Shown here piece by piece: positions 8,971 to 13,846 of a stretch of DNA of 21,327 bases. The position numbers were made by a program, and so were the translations under genes. The stretch is taken from IMG/VR virus record IMGVR_UViG_3300013131_003860, positions 1-21,327 of that record, one strand, 5' to 3'. Under the pieces are notes generated by a model. It worked only from the letters and a program-made list of their open reading frames with translations. It was not told where the DNA came from and ran no database searches. Numbering within the stretch: position 1 is the first letter of the stretch; every line of letters starts with the position of its first letter. This DNA comes from a virus.

Positions 8971-10098
8971 TTAAATTACATATATTTGACGGGGCATTGC
9001 TCTAAACCTCATTTGTTTATTCAAGTTTTCGGCAATATTAGCTTCCCTCTCCATTACTTTTTCGGGTCTCAATCTTGATAACCAACCATTCTCACCAATC
9101 AATTCCTCAAGTAACTTTGATTTTTCGTCTTTACCTTCAGTTGCTAAACTAGCGTAATCCATTGTGATTTCACTATCTGGTGTTTTTAGGTTACCTGAAT
9201 ATTTTCCTCTAACTCTTGATAGAGTTTCTTTACAATAAGCGGTGAACCATCTTCTTACCCATTGCTGACCTGGAACATTCAAATCCTCCCAACTCAATTC
9301 TGAGATTGGAACATCTGTTGGTAATTTGATAACATCTGGATTGTTTTTCAAACAATCGGCTCTGCTGTCAGGTTCTACATCATAGTACCAATACCAAACG
9401 GCTTTTCCTACGTATAAATTGTAATTTGACCAATTGAACTTACCACCAGGCGTGTTGTAAAGATGAATCATCTTTTTTCCGTCAGGTAATCCTGTAATTC
9501 TGTAAGTTAAGGAACCACCTAAGATTCTGTTTAGGATATTTGCTTCTTGCATTCTTATGAGATAGTCAAAACCTGACATCATAAAGTAAGAACCTTGATA
9601 TCCCATTTGGGCGTAACCTGCTTCGTTAGCACCTAATCCTATCCCACCAAATCCAAAACCACCTAAACCTCCGAGTCCGAAGGCGGTCCAAGCTTGGTTA
9701 CTGAACCATAAAAGTTCATTTACCTCACGACCTGCAGGTATTTCATAATCTTGTTTGTTGGCTTCAAGAATAAAATAGTCTTTCTTGAGGACCCAAGGAC
9801 CCTCTGTTTGTAGACCAACAATTTTGGAATAAGAGTAGCTGAACTGTTGTTCAAAATCCATCGTCCTTGTGATGAGAGCACGAGCAACAGACCTTTCATT
9901 CATGTTCAAATTGACCAAGTTTACCCATTGACTATCAATGAGCCATTGAAGAACATACTCCTCGTAATCTCCGAGCGATAGCTCAACCAAAGAGTCTAAC
10001 ATCTCGTCAGTAAGTTCAACACTTCTTAGAGGAGCACCTAATAGGTGTTTGATTCTTGTATAAAGTCGTGACCTTTCTGGTTCTGGAATTGCCGCCAT
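8971..10098 (-). CDS. T4 gp13-like neck protein
   Basis: Head-completion/neck protein that closes the portal vertex after packaging and joins head to tail. The N-terminus (RIKHLLGAPLRSVELTDEML, then a helix ending in DYEEYVLQWL) matches T4 gp13, which opens LRRLGAPIINVELT and continues with an ALELYGEYH helix. A Gly-rich loop (about residues 140-158) sits where T4 gp13 has its Gly-rich segment. The C-terminal part, QQWVRRWFTAYCKETLSRVRGKYSG, followed by an acidic helix (SKLLEELIGENGWL), mirrors [24 protein letters not shown] and the following helix in gp13. It has 375 residues against about 309 in T4, with the extra length in the middle. It is encoded on the strand opposite to the tail block. 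A TATTTAT element (coding sense) ends 5 nt before its ATG. Confidence 0.8.
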   Translation of the reverse strand: MAAIPEPERSRLYTRIKHLLGAPLRSVELTDEMLDSLVELSLGDYEEYVLQWLIDSQWVNLVNLNMNERSVARALITRTMDFEQQFSYSYSKIVGLQTEGPWVLKKDYFILEANKQDYEIPAGREVNELLWFSNQAWTAFGLGGLGGFGFGGIGLGANEAGYAQMGYQGSYFMMSGFDYLIRMQEANILNRILGGSLTYRITGLPDGKKMIHLYNTPGGKFNWSNYNLYVGKAVWYWYYDVEPDSRADCLKNNPDVIKLPTDVPISELSWEDLNVPGQQWVRRWFTAYCKETLSRVRGKYSGNLKTPDSEITMDYASLATEGKDEKSKLLEELIGENGWLSRLRPEKVMEREANIAENLNKQMRFRAMPRQIYVI

Positions 10099-10116: not shown

Positions 10117-11652
10117 TTATTCAATTTCGTGTAATAAAGCATTTTTTGGGAATATGTAACGACCGTTCAATATTTTACAATCGTTTTTGAAAATCAAAAC
10201 GTGATTAGACTTGGTTTGGAAAAATATCATCCAATTCACATTATATTCTTTCACATCTGCATCTGTGAAAATTATATATGTGTCTTTAGCTGTCTTGAAA
10301 TAATTGTAAGGTTTGACCTGACATGTGTGGACTCTGTCGTTTATCGTGATAGTTAAATCAACACCTTTGATAGCATCCAATTTTTTTCCCGCACCACTAG
10401 TTTTTTCGATTGTAGCGTCACCTTCAAAATATAAATCAATTTTTTTCAATACACTGTTTTCAGAATCCTCCCCACGTTTCCAAGTTTTCAACAAAACCTT
10501 AAGGATATTGATGAACTCAGAGTTTTCTTTCGAATAAAGTTTGTTTGCAAAATAATCCAAAGCTTTACCGAAACGAATAATTTCTTGAGGTGTTCTTTTC
10601 TTTTCATCGTAAAAATTGAAGATTTTTTCTGGTTTACCTCTTCCTTGAATTAGATTGTTAACCGCTTTTACCATTAAACAGAAAGTGTTATGGTTGGTAT
10701 TAAGATTGTTCAAAACAGACCTGCCCTCAGATTCCAAATTATAAAACCCAGACATAGTATCATTCGTTTGTTCCGCCCAAGCATCACCGAAAACTTTTCT
10801 CAAAGAATTGGTAATTGCTTTGATGTATATCCTTTTCATAGTCTCATCGAACAGGATTTCTTTGTATACCGAAACATCGTCCTTTGAACAAAATTGGGCG
10901 GTGTCTTTTTCATCAATCAATTTTTTGAACTCAATTTGTTCAAGTAATTTCGTTTCAACTTTCATTTCGAAAAGTTTAGACACAAACTCCCAATTGACTA
11001 CTTTCCAAAAGTTTGATATGTACTCGTCTCTTTTGTTTTTATATTTCAAATAGTATGCGTGTTCCCATAAATCTAACCCTAAGAGAGGAAACCCACCCCC
11101 CTCAATTACGTTCATCAAAGGATTGTCTTGATTTGGGGTAGACATAATTTTAAGTTGGTTTTTTGGTGTTAGTATAAGCCACACCCAACCAGAACCAAAT
11201 CTATCTTTAGCAATAGTCTCGAACTTTTTCTTGAAGTTAGTAAAGGTACCAAATTCTTTAGTTATCTTTTCGAATAGTTCACCTTCCAATTTTTTTGGTT
11301 TAGGTGTTAGCATGTTCCAAAAAAGTGCGTGGTTAAAAGCACCACCAGCGTTATTTCTGATTGTTTTATCGTATCTGTCGATATTCTTGATAATGTTTTC
11401 TAAATCAACATCACCCTTCTTTTTCTTTGACAACGCATCGTTAAGTTTATCAACATACCCTTTGTAATGTTTGTTGTAATGGAAGTTCATTGTCTCGGGG
11501 TCAATGAATTGTTTCAGGGCTGTGTAGGAATAAGGTAATTTCTCTATTCCGATTTTTTTCATTTCTGTAATCAACAAGGACTTTTCATTTTGTATGTGTC
11601 TCTCTTGAATTTGTTTTTCAATTTGTTGAATCCTCTTTTCTGTATTCTGCAT
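10117..11652 (-). CDS. Mn-type superoxide dismutase fused to C-terminal PD-(D/E)XK-like nuclease domain
   Basis: 511 residues in one open frame. Residues 1-36 form a charged, probably coiled-coil N-terminus. Residues 37-230 are a full Fe/Mn superoxide dismutase (2 superoxide to oxygen and peroxide). The metal ligands are His58, His108 (NNAGGAFNHALFW), Asp194 and His198 (LGLDLWEHAYY); Tyr66 matches the second-shell Tyr34. Gly104 and Gln175 (NQDNPLM) are the Mn-type signature. Residues 231-400 are helical and unassigned. Residues 405-490 look like a restriction-endonuclease fold: Glu415 on a helix, GAGKKLDAIKGVDLTI (Asp432), then a strand with CQVKP (Gln445, Lys447), a D...QxK arrangement like Mrr-type enzymes. 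The SOD core is clear; the nuclease call is moderate. It follows the SNF2 helicase by 41 bases and precedes gp13. DNA targeting or a role in oxidative host defence is inference. Confidence 0.85.
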   Translation of the reverse strand: MQNTEKRIQQIEKQIQERHIQNEKSLLITEMKKIGIEKLPYSYTALKQFIDPETMNFHYNKHYKGYVDKLNDALSKKKKGDVDLENIIKNIDRYDKTIRNNAGGAFNHALFWNMLTPKPKKLEGELFEKITKEFGTFTNFKKKFETIAKDRFGSGWVWLILTPKNQLKIMSTPNQDNPLMNVIEGGGFPLLGLDLWEHAYYLKYKNKRDEYISNFWKVVNWEFVSKLFEMKVETKLLEQIEFKKLIDEKDTAQFCSKDDVSVYKEILFDETMKRIYIKAITNSLRKVFGDAWAEQTNDTMSGFYNLESEGRSVLNNLNTNHNTFCLMVKAVNNLIQGRGKPEKIFNFYDEKKRTPQEIIRFGKALDYFANKLYSKENSEFINILKVLLKTWKRGEDSENSVLKKIDLYFEGDATIEKTSGAGKKLDAIKGVDLTITINDRVHTCQVKPYNYFKTAKDTYIIFTDADVKEYNVNWMIFFQTKSNHVLIFKNDCKILNGRYIFPKNALLHEIE

Positions 11653-11693: not shown

Positions 11694-13451
11694 TTATTTC
11701 CTCAGCTCGTTTATTCTTTTTAATATTTCTTCTGCAGCATCTGAGGAATCTACATGGTCACCTAATACAGTTGAAATGTTTTTTTTCTTATCATTCACAA
11801 TTGCGTAGATGATTCCTTCAATTGTGTTTTCAAAAATGGGATAATATACTAAAACGTTATTTTTTTGTCCGTATCTGTAAGCTCTGTCTTCGGCTTGACT
11901 CATGTCACCAGGAACAAATGATAAATCGTTAATAATCACAGCTTCGGCTGCGGTGAGGGTTAATCCGACACCAGCGGCTTTTATATTACCAACAAAGACT
12001 CTTATCTTATCGTTGTCTTGGAATGAATCAACACTTAGTTGTCTTTCCCCTTTGGATAGAGAACCATCAACTTTGACTGCGGTCTTACCGAAATGTTCAC
12101 AGATTTTGTTTAATGATTCGGTGAAATTACAGAATATGATTATTTTTTTTCCTTGTTCTATGATGTTTTCGGCAAGTTCAATTGTTTGGTCGATTTTCTC
12201 ATTAGCAATAATTTGGCGAACCTTTGTGAGTTTTGTAAATTGTACTGTCAATGATTTTGATTCTTCTGGTTTTTTATCTAACCAATTATAGTATTCACCC
12301 ATTACTTCCTCATAGTCCTTTGATTTGAGTCTTAGATATATTGGGGTAATTATTTTTTCAGGTAAATCCAATACGTCTTCTTTCAATCTCCTTAATGTCA
12401 GTCCTGAAGTACGGTCTCTGAGTTCCTCTAAGTTTGAGGCACCCATAACATTCCAAACTTTTCTCACACCTACCTTGAATTGATATCCACTACAATATCT
12501 TATTACATAAGCCATCCAATTTTTGGCAACAGGCGAATCAACCAAACTCAATAAATTGAAATAGTCGATAGGTCTTGATGTCATGGGTGTTCCCGTTAGT
12601 AACCAAAGTCTGTCAACTTTTTTTACTAAGTCATTTATTAATTTCGTTCTTTGCGCTTGAGCGTTTTTAATATAGTGTGCTTCGTCAATAACCACCAAAT
12701 CAAAACCGGCTCTAAGAATCTGTGAATCATCTTTCTTTTTCGAGTCATGGAAGTTTTTTAATATATCATAATTTATTATAACAAAGTCGTGTTCTGTACT
12801 AAAACTTTTACCTTCCGAAATATACACTGACCTATCGGTATAGTTTTCAATTTCTCTTTTCCAATTTATTTTTAAAGTTGCAGGACAAATGATTAAAACT
12901 TTTTTTGCTCCTGTCTCCAAAGCGGCTATAATTGTTGAGGTGGTTTTTCCCAACCCCATATCATCCGCCAAAATGAACTTTTTGTTTTCAACTAATTTTT
13001 GTATAGATTCTTTCTGATGATTAAGTGGTGGTCTATTGGAATATTTGTCATAATTAATTACCACATTTTTCACAGTGTTGTCTTTTATCACTGACGCCTT
13101 AGGTAACCAAAAATCGTAGAGTTCTTCTGTTTCCCAAACCCTTCCCCAAATATGAAACGCTTTATCTTTTTCTGCCAATATTTTTTCTACCCAAACTTTT
13201 TTGGGTATTTCGGTGTATAATTTATCATCCGCTAATTTTTGTGCAAAGTATGAATCGAGTATTACCCACTTTCTTGCGACTTTGGGGTTTTGGTCGTGAT
13301 TGTCAATTATGTATTGAGACTGAGCTCTTGTTGGGTAAAACCTTTTGTTCGTTTGAAACTTCCTTTTTAAGGACAAGATGTAGTTGTTGGCGCCATCGTA
13401 GGTTTCCAAATGTGTTATTGCTCTTGACTCTAATGAAAGATTACTACTCAT
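11694..13451 (-). CDS. SNF2-family (SMARCAL1-like) DNA helicase/translocase
   Basis: ATP-driven double-stranded DNA translocase of helicase superfamily 2, SNF2 group, 585 residues. Visible motifs: Q-like LNHQKESI near 143, motif I ILADDMGLGKTTS (160-172), Ia IICPATLKINW, II VVIDEAH (256-259), III WLLTGTPMTS (286-292), IV IIIFCNF, V AAGVGLTLTAA and VI QAEDRAYRYGQ (518-528). All key residues are present. The N-terminal 140 residues carry phage-type segments (FYPTRAQSQYIIDN, FHIWGRVWET) but no recognised nuclease or zinc finger. Possible roles are replication fork remodelling or recombination (as for T4 UvsW, which belongs to another SF2 branch), or displacement of proteins from DNA. The start codon overlaps the stop of the SET gene by one base, so the two are translationally coupled. 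Confidence 0.9.
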   Translation of the reverse strand: MSSNLSLESRAITHLETYDGANNYILSLKRKFQTNKRFYPTRAQSQYIIDNHDQNPKVARKWVILDSYFAQKLADDKLYTEIPKKVWVEKILAEKDKAFHIWGRVWETEELYDFWLPKASVIKDNTVKNVVINYDKYSNRPPLNHQKESIQKLVENKKFILADDMGLGKTTSTIIAALETGAKKVLIICPATLKINWKREIENYTDRSVYISEGKSFSTEHDFVIINYDILKNFHDSKKKDDSQILRAGFDLVVIDEAHYIKNAQAQRTKLINDLVKKVDRLWLLTGTPMTSRPIDYFNLLSLVDSPVAKNWMAYVIRYCSGYQFKVGVRKVWNVMGASNLEELRDRTSGLTLRRLKEDVLDLPEKIITPIYLRLKSKDYEEVMGEYYNWLDKKPEESKSLTVQFTKLTKVRQIIANEKIDQTIELAENIIEQGKKIIIFCNFTESLNKICEHFGKTAVKVDGSLSKGERQLSVDSFQDNDKIRVFVGNIKAAGVGLTLTAAEAVIINDLSFVPGDMSQAEDRAYRYGQKNNVLVYYPIFENTIEGIIYAIVNDKKKNISTVLGDHVDSSDAAEEILKRINELRK

Positions 13452-13846
13452 TAAATTATTTTAGTGTCAGACCTTCCGTCATTCCAGTAGTCATCACCTC
13501 CGTACCAGACAAATATTTCTTCATCGGGTAAGATTTCATTCAAGGCATAAAACTCAAATGCGTCTAATTCGTGGTTCGACCTCCAGCTTGCATTTGGCTT
13601 ATTGCTATGGTTATAGAAACTTGAAAACCCGAGACCAACGACTTGTTTGTCCCAATTGCTATTTCCTTGTGGCCAGTTAAATCTGTGATTTATTAAAGTG
13701 GCACTTGAAATTCCTTTGGGTATTTCAAGGTCTAAGTAAGGACATATTTCAAAAACCTCGTTTATGAATATTTTTTCTGAAGCAAATACTCCTTTTCCGT
13801 GAATTGGACTTTTTGCTAGGTAAATTTTCTTTGGGGGTCGTATCAT
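13451..13846 (-). CDS. SET-domain protein-lysine methyltransferase
   Basis: 131 residues, almost entirely a compact SET domain, which uses S-adenosylmethionine to methylate lysine in proteins. Motifs in order: KSPIHGKGVFASEKI (opening strand and G.G.FA), CPYLDLEIP, HRFNWPQ, GFSSFYNHSNKPNASW (the NHS..PN pseudoknot that binds AdoMet) and FYALNEILPDEEIFVWYG (E-E-I and the conserved catalytic-site Tyr before Gly). There are no post-SET cysteines, as in short bacterial and phage SET proteins. The substrate is unknown. It is the first gene of the - strand cluster and is coupled to the SNF2 helicase gene by a one-base stop/start overlap. A divergent gap of 49 bp separates it from the late + strand block. 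Confidence 0.88.
   Translation of the reverse strand: MIRPPKKIYLAKSPIHGKGVFASEKIFINEVFEICPYLDLEIPKGISSATLINHRFNWPQGNSNWDKQVVGLGFSSFYNHSNKPNASWRSNHELDAFEFYALNEILPDEEIFVWYGGDDYWNDGRSDTKII

Follow-up and report, generated by a model that had tools for sequence, protein, structure and literature searches.

A phage gene joining a Mn-type superoxide dismutase to a predicted PD-(D/E)XK nuclease, with conserved motifs that may mark prohead-protease sites

The window, by which we mean the whole 21,327-nucleotide stretch of viral DNA that was analysed (IMG/VR record IMGVR_UViG_3300013131_003860), encodes a 511-amino-acid protein in one unbroken open reading frame (ORF), which runs from ATG to stop on the minus strand (11652..10117). 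The protein begins with a charged helix (residues 1 to 30; 11563..11652) that ends in LLITE30, spans residues 2 to 32 in the structural model, and is a candidate capsid-targeting propeptide with a prohead-protease site. It is followed by a Mn-type Fe/Mn superoxide dismutase (SOD) with a full set of metal ligands (residues 36 to 226; 10975..11547) and by a linker (residues 227 to 248; 10909..10974), in which two conserved motifs, LLE238 and IDE248, are candidate sites for separating the SOD from the nuclease. The remainder of the protein consists of a helical middle region, delimited from the model and the alignment (residues 249 to 377; 10522..10908), and a PD-(D/E)XK-type nuclease domain (residues 378, an approximate start, to 511; 10120..10521) that contains G394xxxE398, G422xxxD426, G430xD432, and Q445xK447. 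The neighboring genes lie on the same strand. A gene for a head-tail adaptor-like protein, which served as the syntenic anchor, lies 18 bases after the fusion gene (8971..10098; PHROG 211, E = 9.4e−10), and a gene for an SNF2-type helicase lies 41 bases before it (11694..13451; Pfam, E = 2.6e−29). The start of the helicase gene is overlapped by a gene encoding a SET-domain protein (13451..13846; Pfam, E = 3.6e−12), relatives of which are present at many of the loci described below and beside the SOD-less module of a 735 kb phage. Elsewhere in the window, an ORF open at the window edge (2-766) encodes long threonine/proline repeats of the TPTNTPTNT type, ahead of glycosyltransferase-like proteins.

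The nuclease module was present in all 233 IMG/VR loci that we recovered, fused in frame to the SOD in 216 of them and SOD-less in 17. Because loci overlap between searches, these numbers count loci and not independent phages. Searching with the adaptor protein encoded downstream yielded 80 IMG/VR loci, all of which have a full-length fusion upstream of the adaptor, and a search with an alignment of the C-terminal region added 67 further loci, again all fused. A further search, based on a more divergent alignment, gave a mixed set; together with the 735 kb phage, which was added to it, the set comprises 79 modules, of which 62 are fused and 17 SOD-less. The distinct complete proteins number 111 fused and 9 SOD-less, of which 110 and 9, respectively, entered the alignment. 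A fusion that recurs at 216 of the 233 loci is neither chimeric nor a sequencing artefact; the identical ORF layout across many independent metagenomes rules out chimeric assembly and frameshift. An internal translation start at Met230 was rejected as well, because methionine occupies this position in just 93 of the 110 fusions. Values of dN/dS are low in both parts of the protein (∼0.02 to 0.03 for the SOD and 0.07 to 0.12 for the rest), indicating purifying selection on both halves. We are therefore highly confident, from sequence comparison, that a single gene encodes an SOD-nuclease fusion with two intact active sites.

The SOD half spans residues 36 to 229 and is a complete Mn/Fe-type enzyme, with strong matches to PF00081 (Sod_Fe_N; residues 36 to 115, E = 1.6e−22, 80.2 bits versus a cut-off of 27) and PF02777 (Sod_Fe_C; residues 123 to 226, E = 1.4e−39, 134.7 bits versus a cut-off of 20.9). 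The original prediction, which was made from the window alone, placed a complete Mn-type SOD here, and the residues that it named are where it put them: the metal ligands H58, H108, D194, and H198 and the Mn-type markers G104 and Q175 are invariant in all 110 distinct fusions. The further active-site residues H62, Y66, W112, W156, W196, E197, and Y201 are, like Q175, also invariant. Together with the low dN/dS (median of 0.027 across 39 pairs), this invariance is the pattern expected of a working SOD, and the two markers suggest that its metal is manganese. The best match of the SOD half in a sequence search of the PDB is 6gsc (E = 1.3e−59). This structure and 6gsb are bacterial MnSODs that match fusion residues 39 to 230 with all ligands but have neither a comparable N-terminal helix nor a nuclease domain; we take their source organism to be Sphingobacterium. 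SOD matches in our set of phage records were mostly in bacterial-looking records or were distant stand-alone SODs.

In contrast to the SOD, which is 81 to 89% identical to the window's protein in all relatives except the nearest one, the nuclease half is only 27 to 49% identical in those same relatives. Its 281 C-terminal residues have no sequence match over the cut-off in Pfam, NCBIfam, PHROGs, or the PDB, and no consistent PHROG. No matches were found for the window's C-terminal half in 50,697 phage records, and no bacterial homologues of it in two genome contig scans. Apart from the loci already known, a relaxed motif scan of viral contigs picked up nothing but unrelated frames. PDDEXK_5 (PF11645) was rejected because it gave no match; Pfam "Phage-Gp8" (E = 0.01 to 0.027) and scattered weak Pfam, PHROG, and PADLOC matches fell below the cut-off and were taken as chance; and phrog_5018 (15 members, best E-value of 5.7e−5) was dropped because the match did not recur on five members tested singly. 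A profile match is usual in the very diverse PD-(D/E)XK superfamily but is not required for membership.

Despite this divergence in sequence, none of the 119 aligned modules (110 fused and 9 SOD-less) departs from E398, D432, Q445, and K447, or from G394, G422, D426, and G430. AlphaFold models the nuclease half with a pLDDT of 86 when given an alignment of 36 diverse rows. In the structural model, D432 precedes the strand formed by residues 433 to 437, and the QxK motif lies within the strand of residues 440 to 448. Replacement of (D/E)-x-K by Q-x-K is known from several members of the superfamily. The top Foldseek matches in the PDB are PD-(D/E)XK enzymes (I-Ssp6803I, SPARDA nuclease subunits, Hjc, RecU, and NhoI), with probabilities of up to 1.00 and a best E-value of 1.6e−3, none being at or below 0.001, and matches in BFVD include annotated PD(D/E)XK domains. 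Because the Foldseek E-values are modest, the assignment rests on the fold together with residue invariance. We conclude that residue invariance, the AlphaFold model, and Foldseek confirm the predicted PD-(D/E)XK nuclease fold, and that the domain is a predicted DNA cutter. These three lines of evidence also confirm the original prediction that an SOD and a nuclease-like domain share one frame, and in no relative that we looked at are the halves encoded separately. All three outcomes named in advance as refuting that prediction (a non-nuclease fold, variable D432, Q445, and K447, and separate genes in relatives) thus failed to appear. The original prediction was right about D432, Q445, and K447, but its active-site acid "Glu415" was misnumbered: residue 415 is isoleucine, the nearby glutamate is residue 416 and is not conserved (71 of 110 fusions), and the invariant upstream acid is Glu398 (110 of 110). 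The likeness to Mrr-type nucleases that it proposed gave way to I-Ssp6803I (PDB 2ost), the SPARDA subunits, Hjc, and RecU as the closest structures. These share the PD-(D/E)XK core with the fusion at ∼7 to 16% identity and without a sequence-profile match, and they leave its helical middle region unmatched.

The SOD-less proteins (292 to 294 amino acids) occupy the same site, flanked by the SNF2 helicase and adaptor genes, and the loss of the SOD is clean. In a tree of the helicase and the adaptor, the fusion persists across deep clades, the SOD-less rows are nested among the fused ones, and the supported branches require two changes. The tree suggests that the SOD was lost at least once, and most simply twice; one gain and one loss would be the alternative if the root lay near locus L252. 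Twelve large records, possibly incomplete, were searched for a separate SOD gene, and none was found: the eight that contain SOD-less modules, which reach 309 kb, have no SOD elsewhere, and the four with a fusion have only the fused copy. In the 735 kb phage, LR756501, there is a distant SOD-less module that adjoins a SET-domain gene. Since the 17 loci with the module but without the SOD are nested among fused ones, the nuclease is the constant part, and we propose that it would represent the core function and the SOD an optional passenger. In one SOD-less locus, a second PD-(D/E)XK-like motif protein (GQDFDVIIDNINYYFQIK) and an HNH-like protein are encoded around the module (L247:6748-7830 and L247:5178-5837). 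In two other loci, the SNF2 helicase is enlarged to 961 to 967 amino acids (L216:1192-4092 and L238:2137-5019) by an insert with LAGLIDADG matches, plus Hint-type matches in L216; these inserts are probable inteins.

The prohead protease of phage T4 has the consensus (L/I)xE. Among the fusions, this motif is present at position 30 in 104 of 110, at 238 in 108, and at 248 in 103 proteins. Only five alignment columns (17, 30, 197, 238, and 248) have it in at least 60% of fusions; column 197 belongs to the SOD's own DLWEH, while the other four fall in the N-terminal helix or in the linker between SOD and nuclease. The motif is kept despite varied surroundings, with 44 different octapeptides around site 238 and 58 around site 248. 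The SOD-less proteins of 294 amino acids begin with a helix ending in LSE30|S, equivalent by sequence to fusion site 248, and the distant module of the 735 kb phage has no N-terminal motif. The motif alone, however, is weak and not decisive, because in unrelated neighboring genes 11 of 67 conserved glutamate columns also have it, versus 4 of 8 in the fusion (one of the four being DLWEH). In addition, the last SOD helix of the AlphaFold model runs on through residue 248 and could hide sites 238 and 248 from a protease.

Large records carrying these loci encode a candidate protease for such cleavage. An S77 protease (gp21-type, PF03420) and a gp23 capsid protein (PF07068) score over the cut-off in six of seven large records, and the gp23 of the lineage reads FLINE60|A at the expected end of its propeptide, which is where the T4 propeptide ends. 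In one 321 kb record, [LI][TSN]E occurs within the first 14 residues of 51 of the 326 ORFs, versus 8.7 expected (maximum of 20 in 1,000 shuffles). Given this excess, the N-terminal tags form a class, and we regard them as candidate capsid-targeting sequences, although they could serve another role. Short start tags such as MKYIITESQYNFLIEQ, MSKIVRLTESDLIRLVKKVIKEQ, and MNLNENISRVKELMG are found on dozens of otherwise unlike proteins. The tagged proteins of the 321 kb record (L273 to L292 of G010) are dense at ∼186 to 217 kb and also occur near gp23 at 100 to 103 kb; further tagged ORFs are L004:1872-2552 and L182:6596-7744.

The ribosomal protein gene bS21 is over the cut-off in all six large records in which it was scored; it lies ∼0.7 kb away from the gene for the S77 protease, on the other strand. 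The largest of these carriers, the 321 kb record, has a GC content of 35% and almost no Shine-Dalgarno motifs (7 of 178). Freshwater lake phages that encode bS21 are predicted to infect Bacteroidetes (PMC9723584), and they share with the large carriers the placement of bS21 near the S77 protease on the opposite strand, genomes of ∼320 kb, and the lack of Shine-Dalgarno motifs, a match made on these features. The carriers are a large and widespread group of freshwater phages, and given this resemblance they probably infect Bacteroidota. The main text of PMC9723584 mentions neither superoxide nor dismutase.

We hypothesize that the fusion is a head-packaged cargo polyprotein that is cut by the phage's protease and delivers an SOD and a nuclease into the host. 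This proposal draws on the (L/I)-x-E sites flanking the SOD, the gp21-type protease together with the gp23 LINE60|A site, the T4 precedent, and the class of N-terminal tags; packaging and cleavage are both inferred. The gene product would be ordered as an N-terminal propeptide, a Mn-type SOD, a linker, and a PD-(D/E)XK nuclease module. Its N-terminal helix would act as a capsid-targeting sequence, the protein would be packed into the prohead, and the gp21-type S77 protease would cut after E30 and after E238 or E248. Mature heads would then hold free SOD and free nuclease, to be ejected with the DNA, whereupon the SOD would keep superoxide from damaging the DNA as it enters and the cell early in infection, and the nuclease would cut DNA of the host genome, of a rival element, or of a recombination intermediate. 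The motif count in the control genes keeps our confidence in this mechanism slightly short of even. More tentative still is the wider claim that the phage's own prohead protease splits the precursor inside the head, that the resulting antioxidant enzyme and nuclease leave the particle along with the DNA, and that they belong to a larger N-terminally tagged cargo set in these jumbo phages.

T4 internal proteins IPI to IPIII and Alt have a short N-terminal propeptide and a glutamate-ended protease motif and are served by a gp21-type protease, features that have predicted counterparts in the fusion and its carriers. To our knowledge, none of these T4 proteins has an SOD or a PD-(D/E)XK domain. 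T4 gp21 cleaves after glutamate at short motifs, packaged T4 proteins bear short N-terminal targeting propeptides, and both capsid-targeting sequences and the packaging of foreign nucleases are known from T4 (PMC7411985, PMC9026906).

The fusion may instead act uncut, as a stable bifunctional enzyme in the infected cell, with the SOD tethered to the nuclease to clear superoxide where DNA is processed, and with expression probably late in infection, beside the head-tail genes. The maintenance of an in-frame fusion over deep divergence, purifying selection on both active sites, and the predicted continuous helix between the domains are consistent with such an enzyme. We nevertheless consider it rather unlikely, because the linkers exactly conserve protease-like motifs, the SOD is lost while the nuclease is retained, and the halves evolve at very different rates. 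The persistence of SOD-less modules also argues against the SOD serving mainly as a dimer or tetramer scaffold, bringing two nuclease domains together to cut both DNA strands, with dismutase activity secondary. Fe/Mn SODs are dimers or tetramers, many PD-(D/E)XK enzymes work as dimers, and E197 and Y201 at the interface do not vary, all of which would suit a scaffold, but the invariance of every metal ligand and second-shell residue in 110 sequences goes beyond what a scaffold needs, and we find this explanation improbable.

Couplings of the two halves had also been put forward in the original prediction, as a redox-controlled nuclease or as a DNA-bound SOD. Neither gained specific support, since the nuclease survives without the SOD in sister phages, and the conserved linker motifs suggest that a prohead protease may separate the halves. 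A nuclease switched by superoxide, peroxide, or Mn/Fe, sensed through the SOD half or through C255 and C325 (10888-10890 and 10678-10680), could account for the invariance of these cysteines in 110 fused and eight of nine SOD-less proteins; yet their equal conservation in SOD-less forms removes any tie to the SOD, nothing links one active site to the other, and such control appears very improbable. Least probable, in our estimate, is that an ordinary host-protection SOD, carried as an auxiliary metabolic gene, was fused to its neighbor by chance, with no functional link. SODs are discussed among the reactive oxygen species (ROS)-defence genes of freshwater phages (PMC6802176), and the SOD is dispensable here, but a chance fusion fits poorly with persistence across deep helicase/adaptor clades and with the lack of a separate SOD gene in the large records searched.

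The architecture has already been deposited, as A0A6J5L953 ("superoxide dismutase [uncultured Caudovirales phage]"; 501 amino acids), which Foldseek aligned to the full-length model over 486 columns (47% identity, E = 1.1e−35). The entry is named by its SOD half only, and we found no paper that mentions its C-terminal domain. Nor did the literature yield an account of the nuclease domain, of the conserved locus, or of the motifs in the linker. The original prediction knew of no described protein with this architecture, which holds for the literature that we found but not for the databases; new here are the (L/I)-x-E motifs before the SOD and in the linker between SOD and nuclease, and their recurrence in the phage's own capsid protein.

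SODs in freshwater phages have so far been read as metabolic genes that protect the host. Here, an SOD is joined to a predicted DNA-cutting domain, in a gene whose position next to a head-tail gene is constant throughout a widespread lineage of phages, and delivery in the particle is possible. If our hypothesis of a head-packaged, protease-cut cargo is correct, the phage genome would be protected by an antioxidant enzyme from the first minute after it enters the cell, and (L/I)-x-E tags would offer a sequence handle on the head cargo of uncultured giant phages.
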